DNA of 55,424 nucleotides from Lentilactobacillus parafarraginis DSM 18390 = JCM 14109 (lineage in GTDB: Bacteria; Bacillota; Bacilli; Lactobacillales; Lactobacillaceae), in NCBI RefSeq assembly GCF_001435895.1, contig NZ_AZFZ01000014.1, positions 1 through 55,424 of the forward strand, read 5' to 3'. Both the position numbers and the translations under genes were made by a program. The notes below the pieces were generated by a model. It was not told where the DNA came from. It saw only the letters and a list, made by a program, of their open reading frames with translations, and did no database searches. Below are positions 7,790 through 46,231 of the stretch, piece after piece; the first letter of the stretch is position 1; each line of letters opens with the position of its first letter.

Positions 7790-9034
7790 ATGAATGAAGA
7801 ACTTATCAAAATTGGCAAGCAGGCGAAAGCCGCTTCCTACAAAATGGCGCAGCTTGATACCGTCTCTAAAAATCAGATTTTGAATCAATTTGCCGACGAA
7901 CTCGTAAATCATATTGCCGAAGTTTTAACGGCTAACCAAAAAGATTTGGCAAACGCCGTGGATATGCCGGCCAAGTTCACGGATCGGCTAAAACTCACTG
8001 ACCAGCGGATTAAGGATATGGCCGAAGGATTACGCCAGGTGGCCGCCCTCGCCGATCCAATTGGTAATATTGACAAGGGCTGGACTAACGAAGCCGGTTT
8101 GTTAATTGAACAGAAGCGGGTGCCACTGGGCGTTATTGCGATGATCTTTGAGGCCCGCCCCAACGTCACCGTTGACGCGTCGGCTCTCACCTTTAAGAGC
8201 GGCAACGTCGTCATTCTGCGTGGCGGCAAGGAAGCTTTCAACAGTAATCTCGCGCTGGCTGAAGTATTACGCGGTGTCCTTCGTGACAACAACCTCGATG
8301 AGAACATGATTCAGATTCTCCACGATACCAGCCACGAAACGGCCGATGAACTGATGCATTTAAACGACTACGTGGATGTCCTGATTCCCCGCGGCGGGGC
8401 CGGTTTGATTCAAGCCGTGCTGAAGAATTCAACCGTGCCGGTGATCGAAACCGGCGCTGGGAACTGTCACATATACGTGGACAAAGACGCCGAACTTCAG
8501 ATGGCCGTTGATATTGTCGTGAACGCCAAGGTTCAGCGCCCGTCAGTCTGCAATGCTGCCGAAAAGCTGTTGATTCACCAAGACGTTGCGGAGAAGATGC
8601 TGCCAACGATTGCCGAGGCTTTGCAGGATCACGGCGTTGAGCTGCGGGGAGACGAACGGAGCCGCGAGATTGTGCCATCCATGAAAGCCGCAACTGATGT
8701 CGATTGGTCAACTGAATACAATGATTTGATCATGGCCGTGAAGGTCGTAGCGGATGAAGATGCGGCCATCGACCACATTAACCACTACTCAACCGGCCAT
8801 TCGGAAGTCATCATTTCGGACAATTACCAGAGCGGTCAAAAATTCTTGGACCGCATTGATTCGGCCTGCGTTTATGTCAACGCGTCAACCAGGTTCACGG
8901 ACGGTTTCCAATTTGGATTCGGGGCCGAAATCGGCATCAGCACCCAAAAGCTCCATGCTCGCGGCCCAATGGGATTGAATGAATTGACCACCACGAAGTA
9001 CGTGATCCGGGGGAATGGGCAGGTTCGGGATTAG
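7790..9034 (+). CDS. proA: Gamma-glutamyl phosphate reductase
   Basis: A 414-residue NADPH-dependent reductase that makes glutamate-5-semialdehyde, the second step of proline synthesis. Family signatures include VPLGVIAMIFEARPNVTVDA, the cofactor segment LKSGN-like FKSGNVVILRGGKEA, and VQRPSVCNAAEKLLIH, which contains the catalytic cysteine. The C-terminus GPMGLNELTTTKYVIRGNGQVR is typical. AAGGAGG lies 8-9 bases before the ATG. It is co-transcribed with proB under the T-box. Proline is normally completed by ProC, which is not in the window. A structured repeat begins exactly at its TAG stop codon. Confidence 0.93.
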   Translation: MNEELIKIGKQAKAASYKMAQLDTVSKNQILNQFADELVNHIAEVLTANQKDLANAVDMPAKFTDRLKLTDQRIKDMAEGLRQVAALADPIGNIDKGWTNEAGLLIEQKRVPLGVIAMIFEARPNVTVDASALTFKSGNVVILRGGKEAFNSNLALAEVLRGVLRDNNLDENMIQILHDTSHETADELMHLNDYVDVLIPRGGAGLIQAVLKNSTVPVIETGAGNCHIYVDKDAELQMAVDIVVNAKVQRPSVCNAAEKLLIHQDVAEKMLPTIAEALQDHGVELRGDERSREIVPSMKAATDVDWSTEYNDLIMAVKVVADEDAAIDHINHYSTGHSEVIISDNYQSGQKFLDRIDSACVYVNASTRFTDGFQFGFGAEIGISTQKLHARGPMGLNELTTTKYVIRGNGQVRD

Positions 9035-9190
9035 AGTGCGCCAAAGCCCGGGAGGCACGGTGTCTAAGGGCAAAGAAGTGAAAACCCCGGGCTTGGATTT
9101 TTAGTTTCTCGCCCTTAGATGTTAGCATCAGGGGCGTCGCCCTAAAGGACTAGCCAGCACGTTCCGTGCGGGCGTCGAAGCACGTTTCCA
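9032..9190 (+). repeat. Stop-codon-linked structured repeat, copy A
   Basis: Begins at the proA TAG (9032-9034) with AGTGCG, then the long hairpin whose arms include CTAAGGGCAAAGAAG (from 9064) and its imperfect partner ending near 9119. Then come a GCCC/GGAC hairpin, a GCACG-TTC-CGTGC hairpin and the tail GAAGCACGTTTCCAC. The same order is found at 24033-23763 (minus strand) and 46065-46231. It could act as the transcription end or an mRNA 3' structure of proBA. Confidence 0.8.
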
Positions 9191-17607: not shown

Positions 17608-18039
17608 ATGAGTAATAAAAAGCCGCATTTAGATGAAGCCATTTCCGAACGTAACTATGTTTACAATTTCCATTTTCATTTAATCTGGGTCACTAAATAT
17701 CGGCACCCGGTATTCACAGATCCCCAATTGATAAAAGACATGCAAGTGATCCTCCAGCGGATTGCTAATTTGAATGAGGTCATCATAGAACGCATGGAGG
17801 TGATGCCGGATCATGTTCACCTCCTCATCAGTTTTAAGCCTAAATACGCGCCAACCAATATTGTCAAAGCGTTTAAGGGTGGCTCTGCGCGTCTATTCTT
17901 CGAAAAGCATCCAGAAATAAAAGCCCAAAAATTTTGGGGTGGCCATTTATGGTCACATAGCTACTACATGAGTACGCTTGGCAATATGAGCAAAGAAGTT
18001 GTCGAACACTATATTGATGATCAACGTAACCAACGATGA
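17608..18039 (+). CDS. tnpA: IS200/IS605 transposase TnpA (Y1 HUH)
   Basis: A 143-residue single-strand transposase. The HUH motif is HVHLL (PDHVHLLI), and the likely catalytic tyrosine is in SHSYYMSTLG. The N-terminal NYVYNFHFHLIWVTKYR is a hallmark of the family. The frame is open from 17575, which would overlap tnpB's upstream region; the ATG at 17608 follows GGAAGAAGG and is the better start. All catalytic elements are present, so the element may still transpose by peel-and-paste through a single-stranded circle. Confidence 0.92.
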   Translation: MSNKKPHLDEAISERNYVYNFHFHLIWVTKYRHPVFTDPQLIKDMQVILQRIANLNEVIIERMEVMPDHVHLLISFKPKYAPTNIVKAFKGGSARLFFEKHPEIKAQKFWGGHLWSHSYYMSTLGNMSKEVVEHYIDDQRNQR

Positions 18040-23762: not shown

Positions 23763-24033
23763 CTTTCCTGCTACATTGTGGAAACGTGCTCCGAAGTCCG
23801 CGTTGAAAACGCTGGCGAGTCCCTTTAGGGGCGACGCAACTGACACTAACGTCTAAGAAAAAGCTAGCAAAAATCCATACCCGGGATTTCCGCTAGCTTT
23901 CCTGCTACATTGTGGAAACGTGCTCCGACGACCCAGGCACTAACGTCTAAGGGCAAAGAAGCAAAAACCCAAAACCGGGGTTTCCACTTCTTTGCCCTTA
24001 GACACCGTGCCTACCGGGTCTCGTCGCACTCTA
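23763..24033 (-). repeat. Stop-codon-linked structured repeat, copy B (two units)
   Basis: On the minus strand it begins at the uspA TAG (24033-24031) with AGTGCGACGA. Unit 1 has the long hairpin with perfect 17-base arms GTCTAAGGGCAAAGAAG and CTTCTTTGCCCTTAGAC, then jumps directly to the tail GGAGCACGTTTCCAC plus AATGTAGCAGGA. Unit 2 repeats the pattern with different arms (AAGCTAGC and GCTAGCTT), the GCCCCTAAAGGG hairpin, the GCGTT/AACGC hairpin and the same tail. Both ends are related to copies A and C. Confidence 0.8.
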
Positions 24034-24465
24034 CTTTGGATCATCAATCACCATCACATTCACAGTCGAATGCCGCACAACATACGCGGTCGTCGATCCC
24101 AAAATAGCTCTCGACAATCCGTTGACGCCTGACTTGCCCATGACGATCAGAGAAACGCCGTACTTTTCCGGCAGCTCTCTGGCAATTTGAATTTTTGGCA
24201 CACCCACTACAAAATGAGTTTCCGCCTTCACGCCCAACTTTTCAGCATCGGCCGCCGCATCCTCCAAGATTTCCTCGCCCCGTTGTTGGAACGATGCCAT
24301 GACATCTTGGCCAAGGGTCACCCCATACTGAACATAGCGTTGATCACTTGCAATCGACACGATAATCAGCGTCGAATCAAACTTTTTAGCCAGCTTGGCC
24401 GCTTCGGACACAGCCTTCTTTGAATTTTCACTGCCATCAATTGGAACCAGAATTTTTTCGTACAT
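24031..24465 (-). CDS. Universal stress protein, UspA family
   Basis: A 144-residue cytoplasmic protein with one Usp domain. The N-terminus YEKILVPIDGSENSKKAV is typical, and the ATP-binding motif GxxGxxG-9x-GS appears as MGKSGVNGLSRAILGSTT, suggesting an ATP-binding type. The C-terminal VRHSTVNVMVIDD is also conserved. I start at the ATG at 24465, with GGAGGTG upstream; the GTG at 24474 sits within the ribosome site. Monocistronic, probably stress induced. The structured repeat copy B begins at its stop codon. Confidence 0.88.
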   Translation of the reverse strand: MYEKILVPIDGSENSKKAVSEAAKLAKKFDSTLIIVSIASDQRYVQYGVTLGQDVMASFQQRGEEILEDAAADAEKLGVKAETHFVVGVPKIQIARELPEKYGVSLIVMGKSGVNGLSRAILGSTTAYVVRHSTVNVMVIDDPK

Positions 24466-24530
24466 CCCCAGCACCTCCAGATTAGTTCTTCACAAATCAA
24501 GTTTACCATTTTAACGCCATTACAGCATTT

Positions 24531-45566: not shown

Positions 45567-46067
45567 ATGAATAATAAAGACTTTAAATTCCCTGATACAA
45601 AAGCGTATGAATTTGTGATTGAAACGTTAAGAAAACGTGGGGTCGTCCCGGATGACATTTCCAAAATGGCCATGGAACTCCAAAAAAATTACATTCCCAA
45701 CTTATCGTTGGATGAGGTGCGAAAAGATACCAACGACGTCCTGCACAAACGAGAAGTGTTGAATAACGCGATGGTTGGTTTGGAACTGGATCGCCTGGCA
45801 ACCCAGGGGCTCCTGAAAGAACCATTGGAAAGTATCATCATGAATGACTCGGGCGTTTTCGGGGTGGATGAAGGAATCGCGCTGAACATCGCCAACATTT
45901 ACGGCACGATTGGCATCACCAATTATGGCTACGTGGATAAGGATAAGTCAGGAATTGTCCGCAAATTGGATGAGGCAAAGGACGGCCAGTCGAATACGTT
46001 CATTGACGATATAGTGGGAGCCATAGCCAGTGCGGTGTCGGCGAAGATAGCGCATAGAAATAATTAG
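45567..46067 (+). CDS. pgpA: Phosphatidylglycerophosphatase A family protein
   Basis: A 166-residue protein of the PgpA family, which removes phosphate from phosphatidylglycerol phosphate. Hallmark residues include SGVFGVDEGIALNIANIYGTIGITNYG and DKDKSGIVRKLDE, both quoted in parts, plus an N-terminal helical region. AAGGAGG lies 8 bases before the ATG. No membrane segments are seen, unlike E. coli PgpA; this is the soluble YutG-like branch, whose activity is less certain. Its TAG stop (46065-46067) is the start of structured repeat copy C. Confidence 0.8.
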   Translation: MNNKDFKFPDTKAYEFVIETLRKRGVVPDDISKMAMELQKNYIPNLSLDEVRKDTNDVLHKREVLNNAMVGLELDRLATQGLLKEPLESIIMNDSGVFGVDEGIALNIANIYGTIGITNYGYVDKDKSGIVRKLDEAKDGQSNTFIDDIVGAIASAVSAKIAHRNN

Positions 46068-46231
46068 AGTGCGACGAAGCCCGGGAAGTGCGGTGTCTAA
46101 GGGCAAAGAAGTGGAAATCCCGGGTTTGGATTTTTGCTTCTTTGCCCTTAGACGTTAGCACTTGGGCTGTCGCCCTCAAAAGGGCTAGGCAATGCTTTCA
46201 GCATGGCCGTCGGAGCACGTTTCAGCTAGGT
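46065..46231 (+). repeat. Stop-codon-linked structured repeat, copy C
   Basis: Begins at the pgpA TAG with AGTGCGACGA. Perfect 17-base arms: GTCTAAGGGCAAAGAAG (46095-46111) and CTTCTTTGCCCTTAGAC (46137-46153). The outer stem is imperfect. Then come GCCC/GGGC, an AATGC/GCAT hairpin, and the tail GGAGCACGTTTC. See copies A and B. Beyond it lies CAACC-rich sequence to about 46285 with no gene. Confidence 0.8.

Follow-up and report, generated by a model that had tools for sequence, protein, structure and literature searches.

A family of folded repeats that often begins at sense stop codons in Lentilactobacillus and other Lactobacillaceae

Three genes in a 55,424-nt stretch of Lentilactobacillus parafarraginis DNA (the whole of which is called the window here) run at their TAG stop codons directly into copies of one long, folded repeat. 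Is this repeat a mobile element that targets stop codons, or is it a structure that works at the 3' end of the mRNA? The first-pass annotation of the window, which raised both possibilities from the sequence alone, had placed the same element at positions 9032 (proA), 24033 (reading leftward, at a universal-stress-protein family gene) and 46065 (at a PgpA-family gene), in each case starting in the stop codon and lying in the sense orientation of the gene upstream. All three copies were located there (Table 1): in every one the repeat AGAGTGCG opens with the A and the G of TAG, and every one is in sense orientation relative to its upstream gene.

Table 1. Genes and repeat copies in the window
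Feature	Positions	Strand	Remarks
proA (glutamate-5-semialdehyde dehydrogenase)	7790..9034	+	TAG stop 9032-9034 overlaps the repeat; NCBIfam and Pfam
Copy 1, long form	9033..9189	+	Main hairpin and two small hairpins; main stem degenerate
Copy 1, small hairpin 1	9140..9149	+	CCC TAAA GG
Copy 1, small hairpin 2	9157..9169	+	GCACG TTC CGTGC
Universal-stress-protein (Usp) family gene	24031..24474	-	TAG stop 24033-24031; NCBIfam and Pfam
Copy 2, short form	23915..24032	-	One long hairpin; top score in the window, 125 bits
Copy 2b, second unit	23779..23914	-	5' side truncated; small hairpin different yet paired
PgpA-family gene	45567..46067	+	TAG stop 46065-46067; NCBIfam/Pfam
Copy 3, long form	46066..46224	+
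Copy 3, 17-pair stem, 5' arm	46095..46111	+
Copy 3, 17-pair stem, 3' arm	46137..46153	+

Architecture and fold of the repeat

Members of the family are hairpin repeats of roughly 110 to 160 letters. The short form, represented in the window by the 24033 copy, is a single hairpin of ~113 nt that runs from GAGTG[C/T]GACGAG to GTCGGA[A/G]CACG. GTGC/GCAC or GTGT/ACAC forms the outer stem; the interior has two further helices (the second and the third), an internal loop with conserved letters (GGT/GTTA), a stem that is long and variable, and an AAATCC/GGATTT stem at the apex. The long form (the 9032 and 46065 copies) carries an extra ~40 nt, made up of two small hairpins, placed before the last outer strand. 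Terminal inverted repeats of the MITE type are present, in that the outer stem joins the two ends of the element, and in one copy (L020) they extend to AGAGTGC/GCACTCT. Among the 34 of 72 copies in genome G006 (below) that were parsed by pattern, the interior helices are linked to one another (P < 0.001) and the outer stem is linked to the tail (P 0.007); no link was found between the outer stem and the interior (P 0.10 to 0.40), and one interior feature is weakly tied to the tail (P 0.03).

How closely do the copies in the window follow this plan? The 17 perfect pairs reported for the long stem are exact in the 46065 and 24033 copies but not in the 9032 copy, which is the most degenerate of the three: it scores 57.9 bits with the covariance model R1 (the other two score 125 and 104.5 bits), and its predicted minimum-energy fold is without the long arm (z -3.0, compared with -9.3 and -10.7 for the other two). 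Its tail is GAAGCACGTTTC, not the GGAGCACGTTTC that had been described as common to all. The stems of the small hairpins do vary and yet pair (GCACG/CGTGC, ATGC/GCAT and GCGTT/AACGC), as had been observed. The second unit beside the 24033 copy likewise has a small hairpin that differs and is still paired; that unit is truncated on its 5' side. In the 46065 copy the closing GCC/GGC is swapped to GGC/GCC (read by eye) and still pairs.

Some loci elsewhere hold parts or variants of the element. The two-hairpin insert (GTCGCCCC TAAA GGGG ...) is present more than once away from the main hairpin in L013 (contig C193 of the L. parafarraginis genome), which may make it an independent module. Solo 5' arms (GAGTGTGACGAGCAACG), after which the resemblance ends, follow complete elements in L005 (~1636) and L029 (~2707) and look as if they were copies broken off after the first 17-20 nt. 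At 1485-1600 of L015 the conserved internal loop has been lost and the copy is now a nearly perfect palindrome.

Three window copies alone are too few to prove covariation, and the evidence from related genomes is as follows: In an alignment, made by sequence alone, of 18 short-form copies (18 of 24 motif rows were kept, and the six dropped were a chance match, an incomplete copy and four other types or variants), 97.1% of the cells are paired and 27 of the 43 pairs show double changes; the covariation score is 0.561, compared with 0.186 for shuffled and at most 0.130 for slid alignments. A second alignment (A2) took in 79 of the 85 named loci. For 116 copies fitted to the model the values are 96.5% paired, double changes in 40 of the 43 pairs and a score of 0.631 (shuffled, 0.184; slid, at most 0.084), and for 15 copies of the sister type B (below) they are 91.6%, 24 of 39 pairs and 0.523 (shuffled, 0.199; slid, at most 0.159). 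Copies found by motif or by model are biased toward intact pairs. At paired places G-T exceeds A-C by 287 to 33 in the 116 copies, by 38 to 6 in the 18 copies and by 55 to 13 in type B. This strand-biased wobble points to a folded sense transcript or to one single DNA strand, since a cruciform in double-stranded DNA would be symmetric. The covariation signal, evaluated by shuffles and slides rather than with R-scape, is strong and strand-specific, and the idea of the first-pass annotation that folding is under selection is borne out by the related genomes. Within the limits of sequence comparison, these results show that the fold of the sense strand is maintained by selection, and the maintained strand presumably acts as RNA.

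Could the matching arms instead be a by-product of self-correction of inverted repeats, without selection on RNA? Quasipalindrome repair and template switching do make arms match, and the nearly palindromic L015 copy that has lost its internal loop is what they might leave behind. The letters of the internal and apical loops are, however, conserved among copies and the wobble is strongly biased toward one strand, neither of which is predicted by correction at the DNA level, and we consider this explanation extremely improbable.

Distribution and position relative to stop codons

In the L. parafarraginis genome blastn returned 19 rows and model R1 34, which reduce to 24 distinct matches (the rows removed for overlap are mostly reverse-strand shadows of the palindrome). 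R1 matches 17 of 24 Lentilactobacillus genomes at E ≤ 0.001 (as many as 137 rows in one genome when shadows are counted), and since the other seven gave no R1 match the element is not essential. Family-wide, R1 matches 82 of 397 Lactobacillaceae genomes in 16 of 40 genera (E ≤ 1e-5), and the three genomes with matches in an order-wide sample of 198 are every one Lactobacillaceae. A pattern scan of named genomes (85 stretches) found copies mostly in Lentilactobacillus: sunkii, otakiensis, parabuchneri, kefiri, parakefiri, rapi, kisonensis and dabitei. The sister type B, which has the same architecture (model R2, built on 15 copies), is spread over 169 of the 397 family genomes and 23 of the 40 genera. 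A known Rfam family was ruled out: release 15 gave no match in the window at the curated gathering score, and at E ≤ 1 the element was matched, in seven loci, by sub-threshold microRNA models only. One copy from the L. parafarraginis genome (L006) gave no blastn match at E 1e-5 in plasmid and phage collections.

An identical R1 score of 105.4 bits recurs at L141, L143, L147, L167, L186 and L218-L222, with identical letters in the three that were compared; copies with this score were found in Levilactobacillus, Lapidilactobacillus, Pediococcus and Secundilactobacillus. At L221 the element begins within the last part of a gene for an ABC transporter, next to which lies a family 8 glycosyltransferase gene; we take this neighbourhood to resemble the horA region of beer-spoilage bacteria, apparently spread between genera. 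That such high-scoring copies in other genera are the end of a transposon was considered and rejected, the neighbour at L221 being a transporter gene and not a transposase gene. Both here and at 881113 of G006 the transporter gene runs into the element and ends inside it, and the element codes for the last residues of the protein.

How regular is the relation to stop codons? For a census we used G006, a nearly complete genome, in which R1 gave 86 rows, or 72 distinct hits once overlaps are removed (some type-B copies being missed), in 56 same-strand clusters. With gene ends taken here and below from ad hoc ORF tests, 39 of the 56 clusters have a leading copy whose start is -22 to +10 nt from where a sense stop codon ends, and 16 of these 39 overlap TAG at exactly -1. 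The remaining 17 leading copies comprise six that are more than 10 nt away, eight that adjoin a gene on the opposite strand and three without a called gene. Where genes were called on both sides (36 clusters), 31 lie within 10 nt, compared with 3.3 expected from uniform placement (P ~1e-29). The gene downstream is convergent in 27 cases, codirectional in 21 and not called in eight, and the nearest stop of the 27 convergent genes is at least 39 nt off. The copies are thus not placed at random with respect to stop codons and orientation. The anchored stops are TAG in 27 cases, TAA in nine and TGA in three, compared with TAG in 21 of 103 control ORFs (Fisher P ~9e-8).

In other named species, 48 of 86 copies are within -12 to 12 nt of a sense stop (for 12 of the 86 the start of the element was estimated by position), 16 are 13-300 nt away and 22 have no sense ORF end within 300 nt; TAG accounts for 35 of the 48, compared with 110 of 400 ORFs. 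The L. parafarraginis genome itself repeats the pattern: among the 20 of its 24 distinct matches that entered this test, 13 are at a sense stop (six TAG, four TAA and three TGA) and seven are not. Anchoring is rarer for type B and other loci, of which 10 of 31 are within -25 to 12 nt of a sense stop.

Along the 2,508,572-base contig C1 of G006, R1 hits are confined to 269842-2127861, and a type-B hit lies outside this range at 134999. The gap near the contig ends may reflect element type only, and avoidance of the replication origin was dropped as an explanation on account of the type-B hit.

Shared, filled and empty sites

Do the same stop codons carry the element in different species? Thirty of the 48 stop-anchored copies from the other named species have an orthologue inside the fetched 12.5% of G006, and 23 of the 48 sites are shared, in that a G006 element lies no more than 30 nt from the orthologous stop; chance would give ~1.2, assuming ~2,300 genes in G006. 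The elements at shared sites (22 of the 23 pairs were used) are nevertheless no more alike than random pairs, with 68.3% identity against 68.8%. Taken in parts, the 12 nt just upstream are 0.50 alike compared with 0.34 in random pairs, the interior helices show no excess likeness (0.40, random 0.42; 0.54, random 0.59), and that of the outer stem is slight (0.84, random 0.81; P 0.09). Either the same stops have been hit repeatedly, or the hairpin has been replaced at a standing site. One pair, G006 1503220 and L080, hints at replacement: both have the same unusual outer stem and different second helices. Exchange of the interior in place is a suggestion only, because the outer-stem test at orthologous sites gave P 0.09.

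The proA stop, which contrasts with that of arcA (below), was compared by eye in 20 genomes; the element is present in L. parafarraginis, G018 and G004, the latter two with type-B-like starts, and its presence in G009 cannot be judged, since that sequence ends 43 nt after the start of the stop codon.

A fuller comparison comes from arcA (arginine deiminase, TIGR01078 in G006), for which 24 loci of the genus were fetched irrespective of the element. Nine have the element (stops TGA in three, TAG in four and TAA in two) and three more have type-B-like remnants, each starting in TAG, so that the stop is filled or carries a remnant in 12 of the 24 loci, from 11 genomes. The eight empty best orthologues, G023 included, all end in TAA, and two empty divergent paralogues (71% identity; G014 and G007) end in TAG. 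The TAA stop is therefore found in two of 12 filled or remnant loci and in eight of eight empty best matches (Fisher P 0.0007), or in eight of ten empty loci if the two paralogues are counted (P 0.008); two TAG loci, one of ambiguous state (G013) and one that runs into a contig end (G021), stand outside this contrast. The N-terminal motif of arcB (confirmed with NCBIfam as ornithine carbamoyltransferase in G006 and G001, a filled and an empty locus) lies 192-439 nt past arcA in the nine filled loci, 105-130 nt past it in the three remnants and 36-81 nt past it in seven empty ones. Since the motif is still downstream in all nine filled loci, the element sits inside the arcA-arcB operon.

Transcription, origin and relation to known repeats

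A long, stable hairpin directly after a stop codon might be an unusual intrinsic transcription terminator, and in 23 of the 39 anchored G006 clusters at least four T are found within the first 9 nt past the last element. However, the tail opens with no more than TTTC or TTTT in 29 of the 39 clusters, at 19 of the 39 sites a terminator-like hairpin and U run of their own lie beyond the element (mean of shuffled sequences, 2.5), and the element sits between arcA and arcB with the arcB motif kept downstream. A hairpin of ~113 nt with such tails is not a typical intrinsic terminator, and a role as an unusual one is very unlikely. On the opposite strand terminator-like signals are found at 26 of the 39 sites, so many of these signals may serve the convergent gene. 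Transcription may run through the element at the 19 sites with a terminator-like hairpin beyond it. From these terminator-like hairpins and from its place inside the arc operon, the element is probably transcribed.

Is the repeat then mobile, or is it a working part of the mRNA? A mobile element is suggested by the dispersed copies, the tandem units, the remnants and the difference in stop codon between filled and empty arcA loci. In its purely parasitic form this explanation makes the repeat a MITE-like miniature transposon whose fold serves only its own movement (perhaps in the form of single-stranded DNA, which the wobble asymmetry also fits) and found at stops through insertion preference and tolerance of 3' ends. 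It would accommodate the lack of excess likeness between elements at shared sites, as the outcome of repeated insertion, and the 27 of 48 called G006 downstream neighbours that are convergent (a count without a genome baseline), as with parasitic pneumococcal repeats in the part of the BOX study used here (PMC3049150). Y1 transposase genes (PF01797) are present in seven of the 24 genus genomes, including L. parafarraginis, the element-rich G005, G016 and G011 (short fragments only). But PF01797 is absent from the element-rich G004, G006, G008, G009, G013, G021 and G022, which led us to reject RAYT/IS200-type mobility as the general present driver; no mobilizing enzyme was found in this search for the one family PF01797, and filled and empty sites compared by eye gave no consistent target-site duplication. 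Occupation of 12 of 24 arcA stops and sharing of 23 of 48 sites with G006 are, moreover, more persistence than random parasitism predicts, and we regard a purely parasitic repeat as rather unlikely. One Y1-type gene (PF01797) lies inside the window, at 17659-18024.

Of the two possibilities raised for this locus, a 3' mRNA structure is thus the better supported, and a mobile element that targets stop codons is supported in part. With somewhat better than even confidence, we infer that the family is a mobile-derived, high-copy structured repeat at sense stops that serves as a 3'-UTR or intercistronic mRNA structure and acts post-transcriptionally. Its location at stops and a fold that is kept while the letters change suggest that it probably acts on the mRNA just after translation ends. 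The element would probably be transcribed as the first part of the 3' UTR or as an intercistronic spacer, and its outer stem, which starts at the stop codon, would be covered by a ribosome during termination. The likeliest effect would be post-transcriptional: the element might shield or process the 3' end of the coding sequence before it, slow termination, or reduce expression of the next gene where it lies within an operon (arcA-arcB, for example). Copies would have arrived by some form of mobility and would often have brought letters of the stop with them (T plus the repeat's AG). Turnover of hairpins at sites that stay occupied is visible in the shared sites, and would have come about by later replacement or heavy rewriting. 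A stricter version, in which the stop codon is itself the target (the element enters after the T, its own AG rebuilds TAG, it then becomes a regulatory hairpin coupled to termination, and the site is kept through the clade while the hairpin is repeatedly exchanged), seems to us improbable.

If the post-transcriptional reading is true, a single folded RNA cassette would be the 3'-end mark of dozens of genes in each genome, in a group of bacteria used in food. The family would then be a ready system for studying what RNA structure at stop codons does to termination, to mRNA decay and to the balance within operons, since related species naturally carry one and the same gene (arcA, for example) in filled, empty and variant states. 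A further question is by what route a repeat settles at stop codons and is exchanged there while its place is kept.

How does the family compare with known systems? The nearest are pneumococcal BOX elements and those E. coli REPs that lie near stop codons. REPs are ~35 nt long, and the target sites of ERIC and Correia/NEMIS elements are TA. Unlike the latter, no TA target sites are seen here and the anchor is the stop codon, and unlike REP/RAYT systems several of the element-rich genomes here are without a Y1 (RAYT-type) transposase. E. coli REPs, too, are hairpin repeats found within ~15 nt of stop codons; by the part of that study used here, 446 of 4,072 REPs are that close and REPs lower translation only when less than 16 nt from the stop codon (PMC12306157), whereas by the same 15-nt measure, taken from sense stops, 39 of the 56 G006 leading copies are that close. 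ERIC and Correia/NEMIS elements resemble the present family as intergenic repeats that are co-transcribed with flanking genes, as is probable here, and whose RNA may fold; the portions of the reports drawn on describe RNase III cleavage for Correia and altered transcript levels for ERIC at 3' ends (PMC10969869, PMC1590033). TAACTGA direct repeats of Beggiatoaceae are also intergenic and able to overlap and supply stop codons, but they are heptamers that mostly face a downstream start codon, and no long hairpin is described in the part of that account consulted (PMC4679880).

BOX elements of Streptococcus pneumoniae are likewise modular, tightly folded interspersed repeats with paired ends, and are over-represented between convergent genes; in the sections of the study used here, the repeat encodes the stop codon, at the very 3' end of the gene, in 36 of the 58 genes that overlap BOX, and truncation of overlapped genes is not strongly evidenced (PMC3049150). 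Unlike BOX as described there, the present family has one long hairpin with an optional two-hairpin insert (a distinction drawn from descriptions rather than from sequences), its leading copies as a rule overlap a sense stop, TAG is over-represented among these stops, and species have sites in common. No description of this repeat family was found in the literature, subscription papers being largely outside reach. It is, with the nearest systems compared by description, a new family within a known kind, the structured intergenic repeats, and it is unusual in its anchoring at stop codons, whose last letters it often shares, in its wide spread through the Lactobacillaceae and in the occupation of shared sites by unlike hairpins.
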